IMG/VR virus record: IMGVR_UViG_3300028025_001187
Span: 1 to 40,683 of that record
Length of the DNA stretch: 40,683 bases
Reading direction: 5' to 3' (one strand)
Origin: a virus
Shown here: positions 1-7,767 of the stretch, piece by piece
Position numbering within the stretch: the first letter of the stretch is position 1
Layout of the letters: each line of letters opens with the position of its first letter
Notes under the pieces: generated by a model
Database searches by the model: none
What the model saw: the letters and a program-made list of their open reading frames with translations, nothing else
Told to the model about the DNA's origin: nothing
Program-made: the position numbers and the translations under genes

Positions 1-132
1 CCTAAGCGGCGGCGCGTGACCCTTACTATCGGCCCTCACTATCATCCCTATATCTGCCTAGACTTAACATCTAAACCATCAAGCCAGAGTATATAAGTGA
101 CGGGGAATTACCCCTTAAGAATTGGAGACTCA
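1..132 (+). promoter_or_regulatory. Leftmost non-coding segment, possible early promoter
   Basis: No gene is visible before the first start codon at 133. An AT-rich TATATA hexamer at 90-95 could be a -10 box, but the best -35-like hexamer (TTAACA at 64-69) is 20 bases away, longer than ideal. If the genome is circular or circularly permuted, this stretch joins the control region at the right end. Rightward transcripts starting there would then run through into the early genes. Confidence 0.3.
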
Positions 133-315
133 ATGAATGACCGCCCACTATTAGGTCGCCTCAACCTCTCAAGCCATCGCGCCTTGATGATCTGGACGAT
201 CACTTATGCAATGAATCACCGCGAAGAGATCAGCCCTGCGATGATTGCCAGAATGAGGCAAGGCAATCCCTCCGAAAGACAGGCCGCGCAGATGCTCTCG
301 CTCTTTATGCCCTAG
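133..315 (+). CDS. Hypothetical early protein, 60 aa
   Basis: First gene of the rightward early cluster; I do not recognise its family. I chose the ATG at 133 over the in-frame GTG at 97 because a GGAG motif (124-127) sits five bases upstream of it. The product is rich in Arg and Met, has no membrane segment, and could be helical (an SSHRALMIWTITYAMNH stretch followed by Glu/Met/Arg-rich residues). It stands alone, separated from the next gene by a 127-base gap that holds a strong promoter. A small helical protein of this kind may act on host functions, but that is only inference. Confidence 0.6.
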   Translation: MNDRPLLGRLNLSSHRALMIWTITYAMNHREEISPAMIARMRQGNPSERQAAQMLSLFMP

Positions 316-374
316 ACATCCCCGGCCTCTCATTCCGTTATCAAATTGTTATAAAGCTGCGCCCCCTTTTAACC

Positions 375-403
375 TTGACGTATGGGGTAGACACCCCTAG
401 AAT
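375..403 (+). promoter_or_regulatory. Strong sigma70-type promoter with palindromic spacer
   Basis: TTGACG (375-380) and TAGAAT (398-403) each match five of six consensus bases and are separated by an ideal 17-base spacer. The spacer carries a perfect inverted repeat, GGGGT-AGAC-ACCCC, which could be an operator. Transcription would start near 410. The message would begin with a small stem-loop (CGGG/CCCG, 412-424) just ahead of the purine-rich ribosome binding site of the gene at 443. This is the clearest promoter in the window and probably drives the early cluster. Confidence 0.75.
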
Positions 404-442
404 TATGCAATCGGGACAAGCCCGAAAGAGAGAGGTAAGGCT

Positions 443-667
443 ATGAAGAGACTAACCGCGCAGGAGATCATAGAGAATAATAAGAGAATTATAAAAGAGA
501 ATAATCTTAAGAATTGGCAAGAGATCCATAACTATACGCTAAACAATAGAGTAAACAATTTTGTAAACTGTGGCGCGTGTGGTTTATTTATCGGTAAAGA
601 AGAGCAAGATCTAGACGGTTATCACCTCGCTAATTTATGCGATGCTAATGATGAAATTGGAGAATAA
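443..667 (+). CDS. Early protein with a single CxxC pair, 74 aa
   Basis: First gene downstream of the 375-403 promoter, with a GAGAGAGG ribosome binding site. The family is not recognised. The N-terminal half is very rich in Asn, Lys, Ile and Glu (KRLTAQEIIENNKRI) and probably helical. The middle holds one CGAC motif near residues 43-46, and a lone cysteine near residue 66 (LCDAN) is the only other possible metal ligand. The C terminus is acidic. It overlaps nothing; the next gene starts five bases after its stop, which suggests coupled translation. It could be a half zinc ribbon that binds metal as a dimer, but there is no direct evidence. Confidence 0.65.
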   Translation: MKRLTAQEIIENNKRIIKENNLKNWQEIHNYTLNNRVNNFVNCGACGLFIGKEEQDLDGYHLANLCDANDEIGE

Positions 668-671
668 AATT

Positions 672-836
672 ATGAACATCTACTCTATAAATTTAATCTT
701 TACTACTGACAGGCCAATAGATGAAACCGAATTAGAAACATTAAGATCTCAAGTGATCGCACAGATAGAAGAGCCCGTTACGGCTGACGGTGATGATGTC
801 GATTATATTACTAACCTAATTAGAGGGGGCAACTAA
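672..836 (+). CDS. Hypothetical acidic early protein, 54 aa
   Basis: I chose the start at 672 rather than the in-frame ATG at 642, because a GGAG (659-662) stands in front of 672 and the shorter form avoids a 26-base overlap with the previous gene. The product begins with a beta-like stretch (NIYSINLIFTTDR), has a Glu-rich helix and ends with an Asp-rich segment (TADGDDVDYI). No cysteines or membrane segment are seen. It lies between two coupled genes in the early operon; the next gene starts one base after the stop. Function unknown. Confidence 0.6.
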   Translation: MNIYSINLIFTTDRPIDETELETLRSQVIAQIEEPVTADGDDVDYITNLIRGGN

Positions 837-837
837 T

Positions 838-963
838 ATGAATTGCAATCTATGCGGTGAGGTAATCGTAGACCTTTCGAAAGGTGCAATCGTTGAGCCC
901 TGGGGCGAGACTTGCGAGAATTGTCTCGATGATATAAAAGAATTCGGGACATCTAGAATATAG
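838..963 (+). CDS. Zinc-ribbon microprotein, 41 aa
   Basis: A very short gene preceded by a strong AGAGGGGG binding site. It carries two CxxC knuckles, CNLC at residues 3-6 and CENC near 26-29, separated by about 20 residues. That spacing is typical of a single treble-clef or rubredoxin-like zinc ribbon. It would fold around one zinc ion and may bind nucleic acid or a host protein. Its TAG stop codon (961-963) touches the 5' strand of the hammerhead ribozyme that follows, so self-cleavage would leave this message with a defined 3' end just after its stop codon. Confidence 0.7.
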   Translation: MNCNLCGEVIVDLSKGAIVEPWGETCENCLDDIKEFGTSRI

Positions 964-1014
964 ATCGAAACACCCGAAAGGGTGTCTAGGCGTGAGGCGC
1001 CTACTGATGAGATC
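963..1014 (+). ncRNA. Type II hammerhead self-cleaving ribozyme
   Basis: Every universally conserved hammerhead position is present in the right order. Stem II 5' strand is GATC (963-966), followed by the core GAAA (967-970). Stem III is a hairpin (970-975 with 980-985) closed by a GAAA tetraloop (976-979). The cleavage triplet is GTC (984-986). Stem I is a perfect 6-bp hairpin (987-992 with 998-1003) with loop TGAGG. The core CTGATGA (1004-1010) and the stem II 3' strand GATC (1011-1014) complete it. The predicted cut lies between 986 and 987. Because the open end is stem II, this is the type II topology seen mainly in bacteria and phages. It sits between two genes of one early transcript, so cleavage would split that message and leave a 5'-hydroxyl end capped by the stem I hairpin. 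Confidence 0.9.
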
Positions 1015-1038
1015 AGACTACCGAAAGAGAGACAGATT

Positions 1039-1350
1039 ATGAAGAGCACACTAGAATATATGAAAGAAGAGATCCGCGAGGGCCTTAAATATTCCACACT
1101 AGAAGAGATAGAAGACCGCGCAGGCGAGGCGATAGACAGTCACCTACCCGTCTATAATAATGAGATAATCGAAGAGTGGCAGGCAATGCCTGGCGATTAC
1201 GATAATCGGGGCGCGGAAGAATTAGGTTATCGTATCGGGTTCACTATCTACCAGTTAATGAGCCTTGACCTCTACGTTTATTATAGCGATCTATATGCTA
1301 AGGCGATAGAAGAGATTAAGCAAGAGCAGGATAGCGCGGTGAGCGCGTGA
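1039..1350 (+). CDS. Hypothetical acidic helical protein, 103 aa
   Basis: First gene downstream of the hammerhead ribozyme. The ATG at 1039 is preferred over the GTG at 982 because 982 lies inside the ribozyme and 1039 has a GAGAGAC binding site. The product is acidic and mostly helical, with many Glu, Asp and Tyr residues (TLEYMKEEIREGL, then AGEAIDSHL) and a Tyr-rich segment (LDLYVYYSDLYAKAIEE) near the C terminus. It has no Cys and no membrane segment. Family unknown. It overlaps the next start by a GTGA junction. Its acidity would suit a DNA mimic, but that is speculation. Confidence 0.65.
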   Translation: MKSTLEYMKEEIREGLKYSTLEEIEDRAGEAIDSHLPVYNNEIIEEWQAMPGDYDNRGAEELGYRIGFTIYQLMSLDLYVYYSDLYAKAIEEIKQEQDSAVSA

Positions 1351-1493
1351 AACTTAATCGGCGAGGGCGTATCGTGAGGGCGATCCTAATCGGGGCAGGC
1401 ATCACTCTAGCCTTATGGCTATCGGGCCACTTATGGTACACGGTAGAGGGAGGCTATTGTATCGGGTCAATGGCTAAGTGTATCGGGTACTAG
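1347..1493 (+). CDS. Small single-span membrane protein, 48 aa
   Basis: GTG start overlapping the previous TGA (GTGA junction), a pattern repeated at 1876, 3819 and 4188. The N terminus is strongly basic (KLNRRGRIVR). It is followed by a hydrophobic segment of about 18 residues (AILIGAGITLALWLSGHLW), then a short tail with two cysteines (YCIGSMAKCIGY). By the positive-inside rule the N terminus faces the cytoplasm. It resembles the tiny early membrane peptides of many actinophages, which may block superinfection or alter the envelope; its role here is unknown. Confidence 0.6.
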   Translation: MKLNRRGRIVRAILIGAGITLALWLSGHLWYTVEGGYCIGSMAKCIGY

Positions 1494-1499
1494 AGGCGT

Positions 1500-1533
1500 A
1501 CTATCTCGCACCCTTGACGGGGTGCGCGGTAGT
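1500..1533 (+). ncRNA. Intergenic mRNA hairpin A (processing candidate)
   Basis: Stem ACTATC/GGTAGT (1500-1505 with 1528-1533), a single T-C mismatch, then CGCACCC/GGGTGCG (1507-1513 with 1520-1526), closed by a 6-base loop. No U-run follows, so it is not an intrinsic terminator. The outer strand sequences recur in the hairpin at 2759-2799, which suggests a shared element of the early transcript, perhaps an RNase III site or a 5'-stabilising hairpin. Confidence 0.55.
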
Positions 1534-1568
1534 CTGCAACTAGGCAGAATAGAGAGAGAGGCAAGAAT

Positions 1569-1706
1569 ATGAGAGAGTGCAAAAGCTGCGAGAGTGTGGA
1601 TCTAGTCTATAGCGGCGTAGACGCCTTTATTTTAGGCGTACCTACTGAAACATATTGCTACCCCTGCGCTAACCAATTAGCGCGAGAGGGGGCGGTTATA
1701 TGCTAG
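1569..1706 (+). CDS. Zinc-ribbon microprotein, 45 aa
   Basis: Starts after a GAGAGAGAGG binding site. Two CxxC pairs (CKSC at residues 4-7, CYPC near 30-33) flank a short beta-like middle segment (VDLVYSGVDAFILGV), the layout of a one-zinc ribbon. A downstream helix (ANQLAREGA) follows the second knuckle, as in treble-clef fingers. The stop overlaps the next start by seven bases. With its neighbours at 838, 1700 and 3226 it makes a run of small metal-binding proteins in the early region, probably binding nucleic acids or host factors. Confidence 0.65.
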   Translation: MRECKSCESVDLVYSGVDAFILGVPTETYCYPCANQLAREGAVIC

Positions 1707-1879
1707 ACCGCTGCGATAAGTGCGAGAATATGGCACGCATAAGAGTAACGGGGGCGGTGCCTCACGCTAATCTATGCGCCAGACACGCAGCGGCTCTATG
1801 CGAGAGTGTAGGGGATGCGACGGGCGCTGCTAAGTTTACCGCGTTAATAGAGGGAGATAGAGAGGGGGTAAGTGCGTGA
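1700..1879 (+). CDS. Zinc-binding small protein, 59 aa
   Basis: Begins inside the end of the previous gene. The N-terminal CDKC (residues 5-8) and a later cluster (LCARHAAALC, about residues 25-34) supply up to four Cys plus one His, consistent with a treble-clef zinc site followed by an Ala-rich helix. The rest is acidic and hydrophilic. It ends in a GTGA overlap with the next gene. Family not recognised; it resembles the many unnamed zinc-knuckle proteins in actinophage early regions. Confidence 0.6.
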   Translation: MLDRCDKCENMARIRVTGAVPHANLCARHAAALCESVGDATGAAKFTALIEGDREGVSA

Positions 1880-2049
1880 TAATCGAGAGAGTACACCCTA
1901 CGGGGGCGATAGTAGTAAGCGCACTAGTAAAGTGGCAGGGCGTAAAGTGGCTAGAGAGTGCGACCTATTATGGCTATAGCGTGCGCGACGCTAAGCGATC
2001 TTTTAAGGATAGCTGCGCCCGATTAAACTACACAATAGAGAGAGACTAG
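1876..2049 (+). CDS. Hypothetical small protein, 57 aa
   Basis: GTG start in a GTGA overlap. The sequence reads as two or three beta strands (AIVVSALVKWQGVKWLE), an aromatic patch (TYYGYSVRDA) and a basic helix (AKRSFKDSCARLNY). This arrangement recalls short actinophage proteins in which a strand-turn-strand unit precedes a YSxxDAxxxF helix. No metal site is seen. The last gene before the structured gap at 2050-2146. Function unknown. Confidence 0.55.
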   Translation: MIIERVHPTGAIVVSALVKWQGVKWLESATYYGYSVRDAKRSFKDSCARLNYTIERD

Positions 2050-2054
2050 ATCTA

Positions 2055-2119
2055 GGCTATAGGTTATCTCCTATCCTCTCTCTACGGTAGAGGGAGAGGG
2101 TAGGGGAGGGCAGATAGCC
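2055..2119 (+). ncRNA. Intergenic mRNA stem-loop C
   Basis: GGCTAT (2055-2060) pairs with ATAGCC (2114-2119). Inside, a pyrimidine-rich strand (CTCCTATCCTCTC) faces a purine-rich strand (GAGAGGGTAGGGGAG), giving a long, slightly irregular duplex just upstream of the clamp gene. No terminator U-tract follows. It probably shapes or processes the clamp message; it could be an RNase III target. The pairing is seen directly; its role is inferred. Confidence 0.5.
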
Positions 2120-2146
2120 CTAATAGATATGAAAGAGAGAGAATAT

Positions 2147-2749
2147 ATGAGCACACTAGAGGATAAAGTAACGGCCGTTAATTATGTGGAGGGCGAGGGC
2201 GGGCTATTGCTTGAGCTATTAGAGGGAGTGAGCACGCACGCGGATAAGGATAAGGGGCGACCTACTATCAACGCGGTACATATTGAGAGTGAGGGAGGGC
2301 TATTAAAGGCTAAGGCAACCGATAGATATCGCTTGATCGAGGGCAGCGTGCAGACACTAGATGGGCGACTAGACGCTAGCCTTATTTCACTAGAGGATAT
2401 TAAGCGCATCATCACCCTATGCAAGGCGCATAAGGCTAACCGCGTGCAGCTATCGCGTATCGGTAACGCTCTTACCGTATCCTCACTAGGGGACGCGATC
2501 ACCTTTACGCTATTAGACGGTACATTCCCCCCTACTGAAGAGCTCTTTATTAAGAGTGAGGGAGATCCAATAGCGGTAGAGGGCGTGGCCTTTAACCCTG
2601 CACTTATGGCCGATTATGCAAAGATCGCGGGTAAGAAAGCAGGGATCAAGATCTACTTTACGGGTGAGGGTAAGCCTATGCGGGTGAGAATTACGGGCGA
2701 TAAGATCGCGTGGCGGGCCTTGCTTATGCCTATGCGCTATCAAGATTAA
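2147..2749 (+). CDS. Short DnaN-like DNA sliding clamp, 200 aa
   Basis: Sliding clamps encircle DNA and tether the replicative polymerase. The first two thirds match a DnaN central domain: LLELLEGV helix, ATDRYRL (compare ATDGHRL), a helix at SLEDIKRIITLC, and LLDGTFPPTEELF (compare LVDGRFPDYRRVLP). The end matches only the last half of domain 3 (FNPALMADYAKI ... RALLMPMR), including the hydrophobic pocket region that binds polymerase peptides. Bacterial clamps are about 370 aa with three domains; this one has about one and a half. The start at 2147 has AAAGAGAGAG in front; 2129 is an alternative. No phage polymerase is present, so it may serve the host polymerase III. Confidence 0.75.
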   Translation: MSTLEDKVTAVNYVEGEGGLLLELLEGVSTHADKDKGRPTINAVHIESEGGLLKAKATDRYRLIEGSVQTLDGRLDASLISLEDIKRIITLCKAHKANRVQLSRIGNALTVSSLGDAITFTLLDGTFPPTEELFIKSEGDPIAVEGVAFNPALMADYAKIAGKKAGIKIYFTGEGKPMRVRITGDKIAWRALLMPMRYQD

Positions 2750-2758
2750 GTAGTGGCG

Positions 2759-2819
2759 TACTATCGTACTCTATCCATATACGGTAGAGTGCGGTAGTAT
2801 CTTACTAAAGGGTAAGATA
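2759..2819 (+). ncRNA. Intergenic mRNA double hairpin B
   Basis: A continuous 15-bp stem (2759-2773 with 2785-2799, with a few G-U pairs) is closed by an 11-base loop. A second 8-bp hairpin follows directly (TATCTTAC 2798-2805 with GTAAGATA 2812-2819). The long duplex shares its outer strands with hairpin A. There is no U-tract, so termination is unlikely; a duplex of this length would suit RNase III. The second hairpin overlaps the first by two bases, so they may compete. Confidence 0.55.
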
Positions 2820-2844
2820 GATAGATGAGAGAGAGGGTAAGACT

Positions 2845-3003
2845 ATGCAGCTACAAGAGATAGATACCTTGCAAGATCTAAAGGTATGGGTAGAAGAGAA
2901 TATGCAGGGGGCTATAGTGGAAGAGGGAGAGGGCGGAATAGTTATCCGCACTAATCTAATCTCCACTATGGGCGGATATCTACACGAAAGAGAGAGCGAG
3001 TAA
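2845..3003 (+). CDS. Hypothetical acidic protein, 52 aa
   Basis: Preceded by GAGAGAGGGTAAG and joined to the next gene by a TAATG overlap. The product is strongly acidic (MQLQEIDTLQDLKVWVEEN, then EEGEGG) with a short beta segment (IVIRTNLIST). No cysteines or membrane segment. It follows the double hairpin in the early operon. Family unrecognised; a small acidic early protein could be an inhibitor of a host DNA-binding enzyme, but nothing proves this. Confidence 0.6.
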   Translation: MQLQEIDTLQDLKVWVEENMQGAIVEEGEGGIVIRTNLISTMGGYLHERESE

Positions 3004-3224
3004 TGCTAAGTAAGAGAGAGATCTTAGAGATCATAGATAGCACGGCTAGTTTTAATGCCTATATTGAGGGAATGGATACCCTTAACGGCCAGTCACTAGA
3101 TCTAGTGATGCAAGTGGCAGGGGTAGATGGGCAAGAGTGGACGGATGAAGAGTGCCTAGAGATCATTAAAGAGATCGTAGATCACACTAATAATTACCGT
3201 AACACGCACGACTGGGCAGACTAG
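3003..3224 (+). CDS. Hypothetical acidic protein, 73 aa
   Basis: Translationally coupled to the previous gene (TAATG). It is acidic and alpha-helical throughout, with a helix at SKREILEIIDSTASFN and another at DEECLEIIKEIVDHT, and a conserved-looking WTDEEC turn. No metal site; a single Cys. It could form a small helical bundle. The family is unknown to me. The neighbouring zinc protein starts one base after its stop, so the three genes 2845-3399 are made together. Confidence 0.6.
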   Translation: MLSKREILEIIDSTASFNAYIEGMDTLNGQSLDLVMQVAGVDGQEWTDEECLEIIKEIVDHTNNYRNTHDWAD

Positions 3225-3225
3225 C

Positions 3226-3399
3226 GTGAGCGATTACTACTACGCTGCCGATCCTGCCTTCTACGATAACTCGGAGTGGGCCACTTGTGATACGTGTAAG
3301 AGAGAATATGACCGCAAAGAATATAATTCTGATACGTGCGTAGAGTGTGAGAATAAGCTAGATCCCGCGCTAAATTGTGAGTGTGGATATGAACATTGA
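3226..3399 (+). CDS. Double zinc-knuckle protein, 57 aa
   Basis: GTG start one base after the previous stop. The N terminus is Tyr/Asp-rich (SDYYYAADPAFYDN). Then come CDTC (residues 21-24) and CVEC (about 38-41), separated by about 13 residues, and a C-terminal CEC motif. This can bind at least one zinc in a FYVE/RING-like or rubredoxin-like knuckle pair. The small size and acidic surface suggest protein binding more than DNA binding. Part of the set of early zinc microproteins; family not recognised. Confidence 0.65.
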   Translation: MSDYYYAADPAFYDNSEWATCDTCKREYDRKEYNSDTCVECENKLDPALNCECGYEH

Positions 3400-3412
3400 G
3401 AGAGGGAAAATA

Positions 3413-3583
3413 ATGAATAAAGAATATCTAATTGCTAAGGCGGATCTATGCAAGGATCTAGCCATTGAGCAGCTAAGCAACGGCGAGAATGAAGAGGGAG
3501 TGAAGAACCTCAAGCGTATGATACGGGCGCTAGAGGAGATCAACCTTATTAACTACCTAGAAGAGAGAAGAGGGCGAGAATGA
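3413..3583 (+). CDS. Hypothetical helical protein, 56 aa
   Basis: I chose the ATG at 3413 (after GAGAGGGAAAA) over the upstream in-frame start at 3377, which would overlap the zinc protein. It is predicted to be two amphipathic helices (NKEYLIAKADLCKDLAIEQL and GVKNLKRMIRALEEINLIN), similar in layout to a TPR or helical hairpin unit, ending in a basic RRGRE tail. An ATGA overlap couples it to the next gene. Function unknown. Confidence 0.6.
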   Translation: MNKEYLIAKADLCKDLAIEQLSNGENEEGVKNLKRMIRALEEINLINYLEERRGRE

Positions 3584-3822
3584 GTAACTTCTATTCGACT
3601 AACGAGAATCTAATCTATCTATATGAAGTCACCGACCCACAAGGCGTGGCCATATGGGGAGGAGAGAAGATCGAAGATATGTTTGACTGGTACTGGCGAT
3701 CACCAGAAGGGGCGAGGGTATTTATATCTGCGTGGAATAGCAATGATGAAGATGCCCATATGGTGGGTAGACCTATCGAAGTGACTGCAATCGTGGGATC
3801 TAAGGTGGGTGAGGGCAAGTGA
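3580..3822 (+). CDS. Hypothetical alpha/beta protein, 80 aa
   Basis: ATGA overlap with the previous gene. Aromatic and acidic, with a beta-like segment (NLIYLYEVTDPQGVAIWGG), a Trp-rich helix (MFDWYWRSPEGARVFI) and a C-terminal strand (IEVTAIVG). It may fold as a small alpha/beta unit. No Cys. The next gene starts in a GTGA overlap. It lies just before the transition to the longer genes at the end of the early cluster. Not assigned to a family. Confidence 0.6.
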   Translation: MSNFYSTNENLIYLYEVTDPQGVAIWGGEKIEDMFDWYWRSPEGARVFISAWNSNDEDAHMVGRPIEVTAIVGSKVGEGK

Positions 3823-3908
3823 CCTTTAGTTTAGGGATACTAGCAGCGTTACTGCTAGCATATGCACTGATAGTAGTGGAGGATAAATTTAATGACGGAT
3901 CTCGATAA
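3819..3908 (+). CDS. Tiny membrane peptide, 29 aa
   Basis: GTG start in a GTGA overlap. The product is almost entirely one hydrophobic helix (FSLGILAALLLAYALIVV) followed by a charged tail (EDKFNDGSR). The gene contains a perfect 7-bp inverted repeat (3840-3846 with 3852-3858). Its end also carries the GGAGG binding site (3878-3882) of the next gene, so it may act partly as a leader peptide. Very short genes of this kind are easy to overcall, but the overlap pattern matches its neighbours. Confidence 0.45.
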   Translation: MTFSLGILAALLLAYALIVVEDKFNDGSR

Positions 3909-4191
3909 GAGAATCAAGGGCGCTATGAATATGGCTGTGCGCCAGCGTAACTATCGGAGGGCCAGAGATAGAGCTATGACACGCCTATCCAATGCTTACC
4001 CTGAGACATACAAAGAACTGCTCGAACAGGAGAAAATTGTAGATGAACAGATGGGTAAGAAGTGGCTTGATATTGACGGCAGTACTGACCAGTATATGGA
4101 TCTTAACTCCGATACATCACCTACGGGTGGAGGAGAGGGCGAGCAAGCCAATTCCGGTCCAGACCAAGGCAACGATGGAGGAAAAGCGTGA
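3892..4191 (+). CDS. Hypothetical protein with basic head and disordered tail, 99 aa
   Basis: Strong GGAGG site nine bases upstream. The N-terminal half is basic and helical (DKRIKGAMNMAVRQRNYRRARDR), followed by a helix containing YPETYKELLEQEK, and the last 35 residues are low-complexity Gly/Asp/Glu/Asn. The basic helix could bind nucleic acid. Its 3' half (from 4043) is also read in another frame as the N terminus of the lytic transglycosylase. It ends in a GTGA overlap with the gene at 4188. Family unknown; the regular overlap with both neighbours supports it as real. Confidence 0.65.
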   Translation: MTDLDKRIKGAMNMAVRQRNYRRARDRAMTRLSNAYPETYKELLEQEKIVDEQMGKKWLDIDGSTDQYMDLNSDTSPTGGGEGEQANSGPDQGNDGGKA

Positions 4192-4465
4192 GAATAAACG
4201 AATCGCCAGACAATATAGTCTCGCTCTCGGATATACGCACAAGCAAACAGCGTGCCTTATCACCTTATGGACCCGTGAGAGTAGGTTTGACCACCTCGCT
4301 AAGAACCGACAAGGATCTTCAGCTTACGGAATTGCTCAACTCCTTAGAGAGAAAAGTCGAGAGCCTGAATTACAAATCCTTCACGGTATACGATACATTG
4401 GTCATCGCTATAGAGGCGATGCGTGTAGCGCTCTCAGACATTCTGATCGAAGAGGATGGTACTGA
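4043..4465 (+). CDS. Membrane-anchored lytic transglycosylase (SLT fold), 140 aa
   Basis: Lytic transglycosylases cleave the glycan strands of peptidoglycan. The N terminus is a signal anchor: basic NRWVRSG, then a hydrophobic stretch (LILTAVLTSIWILTPI). The catalytic domain starts near residue 65 with LWTRESRFDHLA, where the Glu in RES is the expected acid catalyst, followed by GSSAYGIAQ. It ends with a QILHGIRYIGHRY...CSAL...GWY pattern typical of the actinobacterial SLT group. An AGGAG site (4028-4032) stands ten bases before the ATG. The gene overlaps 3892-4191 and 4188-4478 in different frames, so about 400 bases are read twice. Its stop overlaps the methyltransferase start (TGATG). It may open the wall during entry or lysis. 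Confidence 0.75.
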   Translation: MNRWVRSGLILTAVLTSIWILTPIHHLRVEERASKPIPVQTKATMEEKRENKRIARQYSLALGYTHKQTACLITLWTRESRFDHLAKNRQGSSAYGIAQLLREKSREPELQILHGIRYIGHRYRGDACSALRHSDRRGWY

Positions 4466-4478
4466 TGAGACTCCTTGA
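4188..4478 (+). CDS. Hypothetical protein overprinted on the transglycosylase, 96 aa
   Basis: GTG start in a GTGA overlap with the preceding gene, the same junction type used elsewhere in this operon. The product is balanced and hydrophilic, with a helix at LQLTELLNSLERKVESL, a second helix at YDTLVIAIEAMRVALSDIL, and an acidic end. Nothing identifies its family. Nearly all of it (4188-4465) is also read one frame over as the transglycosylase catalytic domain. Its protein-like composition and conserved junctions argue that it is real, but one of the two frames could be incidental. Confidence 0.5.
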   Translation: MRINESPDNIVSLSDIRTSKQRALSPYGPVRVGLTTSLRTDKDLQLTELLNSLERKVESLNYKSFTVYDTLVIAIEAMRVALSDILIEEDGTDETP

Positions 4479-5103
4479 TCTATATTGCAAGGCAGGAGGA
4501 GCGAGCAAGGGCTATGCAGATGCCGGCTTTGATGTTGTAGGTATAGATATCAAGAAGCAGAAGCGATATCCCTATGAGTTCATCCAAGCAGACTGCCTTG
4601 AGATCATCAAGGATCTTGATTACCTACGCACCTTTGATGTAATAGCTGCAAGCCCACCTTGCCAGACTCATTCACGCACCAAGCATTTAAGAAACGCTCA
4701 AGGTAAATCAACCGACAAGGTAGACCTTATCCCTCAGACAAGGCAAGCCTTGATCGAGTCCGGTAAGCCATACATAATAGAGAATGTTCCTGGTGCTCCA
4801 CTGGTAGATCCGGTCCAGTTCTGTGGTTCATCCTTCGGGTTAAAGGTACGCAGACATAGACTCTTCGAGTCCAGTATCAAGATAGTTGGATCTATCTGCA
4901 ACCATAAGACACAAGGTAAACCGGTTGGTATCTATGGATCTATGCGTGATGAGATCCCTCAAGGGGGACACACTGCCAAGTCAATAGAGGAAGCGCGGGA
5001 AGCGATGGGAATTGACTGGATGATCTGGGGAGAATTGGTAGAAGCAATACCGCCACGCTATACCTATGAGATAGGCAAGCAGTTACTATCCGTGTTACAA
5101 TAG
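4465..5103 (+). CDS. DNA (cytosine-5-)-methyltransferase, 212 aa
   Basis: Transfers a methyl group from S-adenosylmethionine to C5 of cytosine in DNA. Motif I is degenerate but recognisable at LLDLYCKAGGASKGY. Motif IV is ASPPCQTHS, with catalytic Cys near residue 66, motif VI is ENVPG (about 106-110), and RRHRLF (129-134) corresponds to motif VIII. It is much shorter than usual (about 330-400 aa) and lacks a clear target-recognition domain, as in many phage versions. The ATG at 4465 overlaps the transglycosylase stop; 4456 is an alternative start. It probably protects phage DNA from host restriction and may be an orphan enzyme. Last gene of the rightward early unit. Confidence 0.85.
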   Translation: MRLLDLYCKAGGASKGYADAGFDVVGIDIKKQKRYPYEFIQADCLEIIKDLDYLRTFDVIAASPPCQTHSRTKHLRNAQGKSTDKVDLIPQTRQALIESGKPYIIENVPGAPLVDPVQFCGSSFGLKVRRHRLFESSIKIVGSICNHKTQGKPVGIYGSMRDEIPQGGHTAKSIEEAREAMGIDWMIWGELVEAIPPRYTYEIGKQLLSVLQ

Positions 5104-5126
5104 TTTTGTTTCCTTCCAGCACAACC

Positions 5127-5161
5127 TAGCCCTCACCGTTACCTCTTTCCGGTGGGGGTTA
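5127..5161. terminator. Bidirectional terminator hairpin between converging operons
   Basis: A 12-bp stem (5127-5138 with 5150-5161, two G-U pairs) with an 11-base loop lies between the end of the methyltransferase gene and the end of the leftward FmdB-like gene. The plus strand lacks a long U-run, but the stem is long and its position between convergent units is what a shared terminator needs. Confidence 0.65.
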
Positions 5162-5166
5162 GTGCT

Positions 5167-5337
5167 TTATCCACCGTTACTGTAGAACCCTGGACCCTTA
5201 AAGGTGATAGCGGGAGAGGACCAAGTACGAGACATAGACTGGTAGCAATCAGTACATACAGGAGCAATGATCTCAGCGTGGATAGACTGTTCGATCTCTC
5301 TGGTGCTACCGCACTCACACTTAAAAGCATAGATCAT
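5167..5337 (-). CDS. FmdB-like zinc-ribbon protein, 56 aa
   Basis: Matches the FmdB-type ribbon: an N-terminal YAFKCECG knuckle (residues 3-10), a second knuckle CTDC (28-31), then the family's characteristic end, RTWSSPAITFKGPGFYSNGG (compare VFSAPGIVFKGSGFY). Such ribbons bind one zinc and are thought to regulate transcription or bind protein partners. Start overlaps the upstream stop (ATGA). Last gene of the leftward replication operon, just before the terminator at 5127-5161. Cellular FmdB proteins are somewhat longer (about 60-110 aa); this one keeps only the core. Confidence 0.75.
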   Translation of the reverse strand: MIYAFKCECGSTREIEQSIHAEIIAPVCTDCYQSMSRTWSSPAITFKGPGFYSNGG

Positions 5338-5717
5338 AGCTTTACTGCCTCTTCTATATCTAAGTAACCTACTAACTTGTAAATCTTATCCTTGTTATCA
5401 AACTCGGTAGACACTGGCATCACTTGTGTATACCATTTAGGTTCTGGTAGATCCATAAGATCAAAAGAATAGATACCAAGTGGAGTCGAGTTGATGTAGT
5501 ACGGAATCAGATCTCGTTCTGCTGCCTGAGTGATGAGCTTGCGGTACTTCATCTCTTCGATAAGCAAGGTCTGATAGTGAGTCTGTCTGCATTTAAGTTC
5601 GATATAGTGGGCAGCCTTCTGGCTGGTGCAGTCATAAGAATCATAGATCCCTGGACTCTTAACTAAGTCAGGGTAGAGACTGCCTTTGAGATAGTTAAAT
5701 AACTCTTCTTCTTTCAT
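5334..5717 (-). CDS. Putative PD-(D/E)XK nuclease-like protein, 127 aa
   Basis: A candidate restriction-like fold: acidic residues (Asp26/Asp29 in YDSYDC), then HYIELKCR with the E-x-K pair (Glu40, Lys42), followed by a helix (TLLIEEMKYRKLI) that often carries a supporting Lys. The remainder is beta-rich and ends in LVGYLDIEEAVKL. Overlaps the sigma-like gene by four bases (ATGA). Could be a recombination or DNA-degrading nuclease, or a non-catalytic relative. The E-x-K pattern alone is weak evidence, so the family call is tentative. Confidence 0.5.
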   Translation of the reverse strand: MKEEELFNYLKGSLYPDLVKSPGIYDSYDCTSQKAAHYIELKCRQTHYQTLLIEEMKYRKLITQAAERDLIPYYINSTPLGIYSFDLMDLPEPKWYTQVMPVSTEFDNKDKIYKLVGYLDIEEAVKL

Positions 5718-6346
5718 CTAAACGGTGTCTCCCCGCCTAGTTCTTCTTGCAATCTACGCAATGAGTTGGTACATCTACGATCAGCAGTGGATACTGCACA
5801 CTCTAGGAACGATGCTATCTGCTGCAGCGTAGCGTTCTCATAGTGGCGCATACGCAATACCGCTTGGTCCTTCTCATCTAATTCGAGATAAGCCTTCTTA
5901 ATATCTATCAGGCTAGCAAGTAGGTTGCCACCTTCTGCTGGGCTAGATGAACCGCGTGGTTGGCCATCCTTGATCATCTCTTGTGCCTGCTCTAGCACAG
6001 CACCACTTACGATGGATGCAATAACAAAGGGTAGTAGCTGGCCAAGCATTAAGGTTTCGTAGTAAGCCTCATCCATCAACTGATAGCCGGACTTGTTAGC
6101 CTTCTCCTTGCGTGCATAGCGTTCTGCTGCACGCCTCATCTGCCAAGCGATGCGCTTCTCATTATGCTCTAGCTGTTTGGCATCTTCAACACTCATCTGC
6201 TCGGTGATGTAATCATTACGGGTGATGGCCCAGGCAATACACTCCTGAGTTATATCATCCCTTTCAACCCAATGCTTATAGCGCCGATGGATTGCATAAG
6301 CAACCGATGGCGCTAACTCATAAACAATAGGATGCAGTTCACTCAC
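5714..6346 (-). CDS. Sigma-70-like RNA polymerase factor, 210 aa
   Basis: The N-terminal part resembles sigma region 2 (HPIVYELAPSVAYAIHRRY then RDDITQECIAWAI, as in ECF-type factors). The C-terminal part is a clear region 4 helix-turn-helix: LDEKDQAVLRMRHYENATLQ, then QIASFLECAVSTADRRCTNS. It would bind core RNA polymerase and a promoter -35 element, redirecting transcription to phage promoters. A Gly/Ser-rich linker joins the two domains. I place the start at GTG 6346, which overlaps the upstream gene by eight bases; an ATG at 6379 would give 221 aa and a 41-base overlap. Late promoters are a plausible target, but I cannot see a shared motif that proves it. Confidence 0.75.
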   Translation of the reverse strand: MSELHPIVYELAPSVAYAIHRRYKHWVERDDITQECIAWAITRNDYITEQMSVEDAKQLEHNEKRIAWQMRRAAERYARKEKANKSGYQLMDEAYYETLMLGQLLPFVIASIVSGAVLEQAQEMIKDGQPRGSSSPAEGGNLLASLIDIKKAYLELDEKDQAVLRMRHYENATLQQIASFLECAVSTADRRCTNSLRRLQEELGGETPFR

Positions 6347-7401: not shown

Positions 7402-7672
7402 CCCTAAACTCCAAGTTCTCTATGATGCAGACTATGTTGACTGCGTTGCCACCTCTACCGCAAGTGTGGCAAAAGTATAAGTTCTTATATGTGTTGATTA
7501 CGGCAGACCTACGTGTGTCACTATGCAAGCAACACTTAACTGATACATCCTGTCCTTCTCGTACTTCCCCACCGAAGTAGGTAACGATTGGACCTATGGG
7601 GATTGAGTTTGCATCAGTGGAGCCGGAACTCCCTTTGCCTTTACCCAACCTTGACCAGTCTTGTGCTGACAT
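7295..7672 (-). CDS. DNA primase, zinc-binding part (CHC2-type), 125 aa
   Basis: Carries a CHC2 zinc site: Cys47-x2-His50, then Cys68-x2-Cys71 in LYFCHTCGRGG, the DnaG motif that reads template DNA. The C-terminal tail is Gly/Arg-rich and disordered (RPRGKSGNSGRTRRT). I prefer the ATG at 7672, which has GAAGGG five bases upstream, to the GTG at 7678. Its 5' end overlaps the previous zinc gene (7594-7767) and its 3' end overlaps the TOPRIM gene, each in another frame. No canonical slippery heptamer is visible, so I read them as two separate subunits. Confidence 0.8.
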   Translation of the reverse strand: MSAQDWSRLGKGKGSSGSTDANSIPIGPIVTYFGGEVREGQDVSVKCCLHSDTRRSAVINTYKNLYFCHTCGRGGNAVNIVCIIENLEFRDGLKRAVEIATGSGAAIRPRGKSGNSGRTRRTWDL

Positions 7673-7767
7673 ACACACCCTTCACACTTCTCGTGCCAGT
7701 GTGCAGCACGCTTGAGATGGTTCAGTGAGTTCTCTTCACCTGCCTTGGTACAGTAATCGCAGATCAT
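7594..7767 (-). CDS. Zinc-finger microprotein overlapping the primase gene, 57 aa
   Basis: Starts in an ATGA overlap with the upstream gene. Cys3-x2-Cys6 (CDYC) is followed by a helix containing His18, His24 and His26, and then CEGCVCQH (from residue 28), which offers more than enough ligands for one zinc. The C-terminal 24 residues are basic and Pro/Gln-rich. They share about 79 bases with the first part of the primase zinc gene in another frame. Similar CxxC...CxGCxCQH proteins sit beside primase genes in other actinophages as far as I recall; function unknown. Confidence 0.65.
   Translation of the reverse strand: MICDYCTKAGEENSLNHLKRAAHWHEKCEGCVCQHKTGQGWVKAKGVPAPLMQTQSP

Follow-up and report, generated by a model that had tools for sequence, protein, structure and literature searches.

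What does a hammerhead-like element do between two small genes of a phage operon, and is it a ribozyme at all? We addressed this question in a viral contig of 40,683 nt (IMG/VR record IMGVR_UViG_3300028025_001187; the whole stretch is called the window below), in the left arm of which an operon of small genes lies with a DNA clamp gene nearby. The neighbouring clamp and methyltransferase genes suggest that the operon is early. The actinophage origin proposed in the original prediction appears plausible, as the terminase was closest to those of Streptomyces phages (43%) among the named phages searched. When window positions 1-6000 were compared with named phages by blastn, only a methyltransferase fragment was matched, and the clamp gene gave no match among named phages. 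The element and its surroundings are as follows.

375-403, + strand: promoter-like sequence (TTGACG-17-TAGAAT) in front of the operon, with a small hairpin and CCGAAAG after it; a consensus match only, with the number of promoter-like sites in this region near the shuffle mean.
838-963, + strand: upstream ORF of 41 aa with two CxxC motifs (zinc-ribbon-like), called the zinc ORF.
963-1014, + strand: entire type II hammerhead ribozyme motif, 52 nt, recognized by a hold-out covariance model and Rfam RF02276.
1017-1027, + strand: leader ACTACCGAAAG, also located 3' of other hammerheads and promoters in related phages.
1039-1350, + strand: downstream ORF g4 of 103 aa, without a family match and conserved in relatives.

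The element lies between two co-directional genes, as had been claimed, and it was also correct that it begins at the stop codon of a zinc microprotein gene and ends before the next gene. The TAG stop (961-963) of the 41-aa ORF overlaps the first base of stem II (963), and 24 nt separate the ribozyme end (1014) from the next start codon (1039). Two further intergenic stretches of the window, 1514-1537 (TTGACG...GGTAGTCTGC) and 2777-2790 (ATATACGGTAGAGT), are promoter-like and resemble CTATACGGTATAGT stretches ahead of operons in relatives. The parts of the motif were assigned as follows.

962, + strand: conserved A directly outside stem II (33/35 of the short subgroup described below), also the A of the TAG stop.
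963-966, + strand: 5' strand of stem II, GATC, paired with 1011-1014 (sequence reading and covariation).
967-969, + strand: core G12 A13 A14 (GAA), by sequence reading.
970-985, + strand: stem III, 970-975 paired with 980-985 (6 bp), with the GAAA tetraloop at 976-979.
986-987, + strand: predicted cleavage site C986/U987, with the GUC (GTC) triplet at 984-986, by the known hammerhead mechanism.
987-1003, + strand: stem I, TAGGCG at 987-992 paired with CGCCTA at 998-1003, with the pentaloop UGAGG (TGAGG) at 993-997.
1004-1010, + strand: core CUGAUGA (CTGATGA), by sequence reading.
1011-1014, + strand: 3' strand of stem II, GATC, paired with 963-966.
1015, + strand: conserved A directly 3' of stem II (30/35 of the short subgroup).

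Every base named in the original prediction was found in 963-1014 on the + strand, including the GUC triplet in front of the expected cut. The catalytic core GAA(A)...UH...CUGANGA is present in type II order, and its GAA(A) part occupies 967-970, where A970 also serves as the first base of stem III. Three helices are formed with 16/16 pairs, stems I and III being closed by loops and stem II being open. All six pairs of stem I are present, consistent with the predicted hairpin at the 5' end of the downstream product. Within the whole window, 963-1014 was the single core match to the hammerhead pattern.

A hold-out covariance model, built without the window copy and without its nearest stem II group, matched the window with 69 bits (E 6e-19). 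RF02276 (Hammerhead_II) was the best family match to 963-1014, with the same core, strand order, loop-closed stems I and III and open stem II, but the score of 29.7 bits (E 9e-6 over this genome) was under the curated gathering cut-off of 37 bits, and the window copy differs from the family in carrying no loop I pseudoknot. Because 29.7 bits falls under the cut-off, the Rfam scan of the whole window at this threshold reported no match.

For analysis of covariation, a core-only pattern was used, which matched 63 stretches in viral contigs and 7 in genome contigs. The pattern fixed core, stem-end and loop bases only and not the stems, so that the other stem positions test the pairing independently, while the invariance of the core in this set is partly by construction. 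Among 34 distinct sequences of the window geometry, 98.5% of the stem cells were paired, compared with 26-39% when one strand was slid. Both-side changes were present in 13 of the 16 stem pairs, and the three pairs that never varied were those fixed by the pattern. Loss of the core together with lack of compensation in related phages had been named as evidence against a ribozyme; in these phages the core was kept and compensatory changes were seen. One core-pattern match, in a Lachnospiraceae genome (L069), was rejected as chance after its stems failed to pair. A chance match to a short motif could also be proposed for the window, where, at this size, 0.24 occurrences of the bare core would be expected if the stems are disregarded. 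However, the core descriptor with stems gave 0 matches in 1.13 Mb of shuffled loci, the hold-out E value is very small and the element is present in relatives, and we consider the probability of a chance match negligible. The core, helices and covariance model match all agree, and this strong sequence evidence identifies 963-1014 as a genuine type II hammerhead, a further member of a known ribozyme class, which is predicted to cleave itself.

In the loci scanned we found 101 distinct type II hammerheads of two forms, long and short. In the long form, the complementarity of loop I to the tail 3' of stem II exceeds that to shuffled tails, and this pairing is the known type II pseudoknot (PMC3088659). 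The window copy belongs to a short, fixed-geometry and pseudoknot-free subgroup with a 6-bp stem I, a 4-bp stem II, an A at either side of stem II and a loop I of five bases, usually U-N-A/G-N-G/A. In this subgroup the complementarity between loop I and tail was no better than with shuffled tails. The RF02276 cut-off was passed by some short members (L005, L008 and L060), not by all. Locus L005 also contains, at 7572-7689 (+), a match to the Rfam Betaproteobacteria-1 RNA with 105 bits.

The loop I pseudoknot speeds many type II ribozymes. It was sought in the window copy and none was found, and this bears on whether the structure is inactive or very slow and acts at most as a spacer or hairpin. 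The loop I-3' tail pseudoknot is present in the majority of known type II hammerheads and is common but not defining (PMC3088659). In the short form, the loop and the A residues on both sides of stem II may provide the tertiary contact. Folding predictions with ViennaRNA, in which tertiary contacts are not considered, gave the hammerhead for the 52 nt alone in the window copy and in the other stem-forming members. With the natural flank of the window copy included, stem II (about 0.20) was less favoured than a competing hairpin, 1004-1008/1012-1016 (about 0.76). The pairing of this hairpin is interrupted by a mismatch in L079 and L121; it is thus not conserved as an alternative, and a conserved switch operating through 1004-1016 was unsupported. 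The competing hairpin, the lack of a pseudoknot and the report that 4 of 18 tested consensus hammerheads were inactive (Perreault 2011, PMC3088659) all favour an inactive structure, but every catalytic base is present, the hairpin is broken in relatives and the isolated element is predicted to fold correctly. Inactivity therefore seems quite improbable to us.

The placement of the hammerheads relative to codons was counted with simple open-frame rules rather than curated gene calls. Among those with sufficient upstream sequence, the stop codon of an upstream frame fell at -4 to 0 relative to stem II in 35/52 short and 25/47 long hammerheads, compared with 2.8% of random sites. Downstream, a ribosome-site-like motif plus a start codon within 90 nt followed 86 of the 101 hammerheads and 27% of random sites; in the short form the distance to the start codon was 11-37 nt (median 22 nt). 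Several contigs (L001, L004, L030 and L066) carry five to eight hammerheads in a few kb. The IMG/VR loci L004 and L001 have eight and six type II hammerheads, respectively, within a stretch of about 5 kb; most are closely followed by a start codon, which would suit an operon being cut into single-gene messages. On a bacterial contig of Streptomyces sp. NRRL F-5123 (L066:610-3779), five type II hammerheads are located in 3.2 kb. Because four of the five are also present on the viral contig L033, this stretch is probably a prophage.

Relatives of the window were located via the clamp gene and g4, which gave 48 loci, several of them truncated. Hammerheads were present in only three of these further loci (L079, L110 and L113), most relatives of the operon being without a ribozyme. 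In L079 and L110 the ribozyme lies upstream of the same clamp gene as in the window, with compensated stems. The L113 copy (3539-3591, +) has an extra U between core and stem II, and its activity is doubtful. Three more loci (L121, L126 and L130) came from a pattern based on the leader, which also matched a half-lost copy in L123 and, in L137, at a contig edge. In the half-lost copy (L123:7491-7530, -), the leader, stems I and III and the downstream gene match L126, and the 5' strand of stem II and the GAA core are replaced, as if broken by recombination. Since most operon relatives are without the ribozyme and the L123 copy is half-lost, the ribozyme is optional and dispensable in this phage group.

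The junction occupied by the ribozyme also differs. In the window and L110 it precedes g4, and in L079 a different gene; in L054 it separates the g7 and g5 homologues, and in L121 another gene intervenes between the zinc ORF and the ribozyme. A tie to the zinc ORF was rejected, as L117 and L121 keep this ORF without a ribozyme directly behind it, and so was a tie to g4, most homologues of which are without a ribozyme. Patchy presence, differing junctions and the half-lost L123 copy with its downstream gene intact would all be expected if the ribozyme were an active but neutral or selfish module, moved among gene junctions by recombination with no benefit to the phage. Against this, compensatory change maintains the stems across divergent phages and the position of the ribozymes between stop and start codons is tightly constrained, and we consider a purely neutral or selfish element rather unlikely.

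The leader ACTACCGAAAG or a close variant is located 3' of the ribozyme in the window, L079, L110, L121, L123, L126 and L130. The gene L079_dn is headed by a ribozyme in L079; in L072, L077 and L081, where the protein identity is 90-92%, it is the first gene behind a promoter-like sequence, which is followed by a short hairpin and the same leader. Of the 71 leader-like sites that the group contains, a promoter match was seen at 11, a hammerhead core at 8 and both at 0, although the promoter pattern was simple, missed L072 (TTGCAC-16-TATAGT by eye) and may have given some spurious matches among the 11. On the contig L130, a ribozyme-headed and a promoter-headed arrangement occur at successive genes.

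Hammerhead cut chemistry is established for the class, and it is from the ribozyme class that we infer the activity of this copy, the resulting ends and their effect on stability; a biological role is suggested by the comparison with related phages. The polycistronic RNA would fold and cut itself co-transcriptionally between C986 and U987. The 3' end of the upstream message (g1, g2 and the zinc ORF) would be formed by the stem III hairpin and carry a 2',3'-cyclic phosphate. The downstream message (g4 and g5) would have a 5'-OH and open with the stem I hairpin, after which come the leader ACUACCGAAAG and the start codon. Because of the type II layout, both new ends would be closed by hairpins. 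The ribozyme would act as an RNA-level substitute for a promoter, giving an internal gene the same 5' end of hairpin and leader as homologous genes of related phages receive from a promoter, and the two operon halves could then differ in stability and translation.

The main effect of an active ribozyme may instead be on the upstream half, where cleavage would trim the 3' end of the g1-g3 message and expose or protect it, the leader being incidental. Both products are affected equally by the cleavage chemistry and a stop codon often overlaps the ribozyme edge, as this explanation would have it. However, the downstream leader is conserved across different genes while the upstream genes differ, and the closest homologue of the zinc ORF (L121, 73%) is followed by another gene with no intervening ribozyme. 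We give an upstream role only a small share of the probability. It is probable, in our judgement, that an active ribozyme divides the message of the operon in two and leaves the downstream part with a hairpin at its 5' end, much as a promoter would provide. More tentatively, the ribozyme plus leader might form a cassette that stands in for a promoter and can be placed before many genes with the same hairpin-leader 5' end; we regard this as possible, though doubtful.

Self-cleaving RNAs near phage genes have been described before. Type II hammerheads occur in prophages, in tandem near genes, and such arrays cleave in vitro and in E. coli (PMC3088659). In the haloviruses HF1/HF2, an early gene starts 13 nt downstream of HHphage, and the 5' end mapped for the early transcript is within 3 nt of the HHphage cut site (PMC3088659). 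Like the hammerheads that Perreault et al. 2011 described from phages and prophages, the elements described here flank genes in phage operons, self-cleavage being predicted in our case; different from that work, a fixed 52-nt form, the overlap with the stop codon and the alternation of promoter and ribozyme were measured. The alternation at one leader was not found in the accessible literature, many subscription papers being unsearchable, and likewise the fixed 52-nt form and the stop-codon overlap were not found there and may be published. Earlier work, as summarised in PMC10085705, reported an enrichment of hammerhead and twister ribozymes in the vicinity of Mu-like phage genes. Those are likewise bacterial self-cleaving ribozymes associated with phage genes, but the neighbours here are others, namely a small-gene operon adjoining a DNA clamp gene.

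In phage contigs, the Rfam cut-off overlooks many members of the short pseudoknot-free subgroup. The function of the hammerheads found in genomes of bacteria and phages has been called an open question (PMC6155905). In our comparison, one homologous gene follows a ribozyme in L079 but a promoter in L072, L077 and L081, with the same leader in all four, and L130 has both arrangements; with this alternation at one gene, a role of the ribozyme in setting the internal 5' end of a message becomes directly testable. If the ribozyme plus leader does stand in for a promoter, it would allow these phages to build modular operons without new transcription starts.
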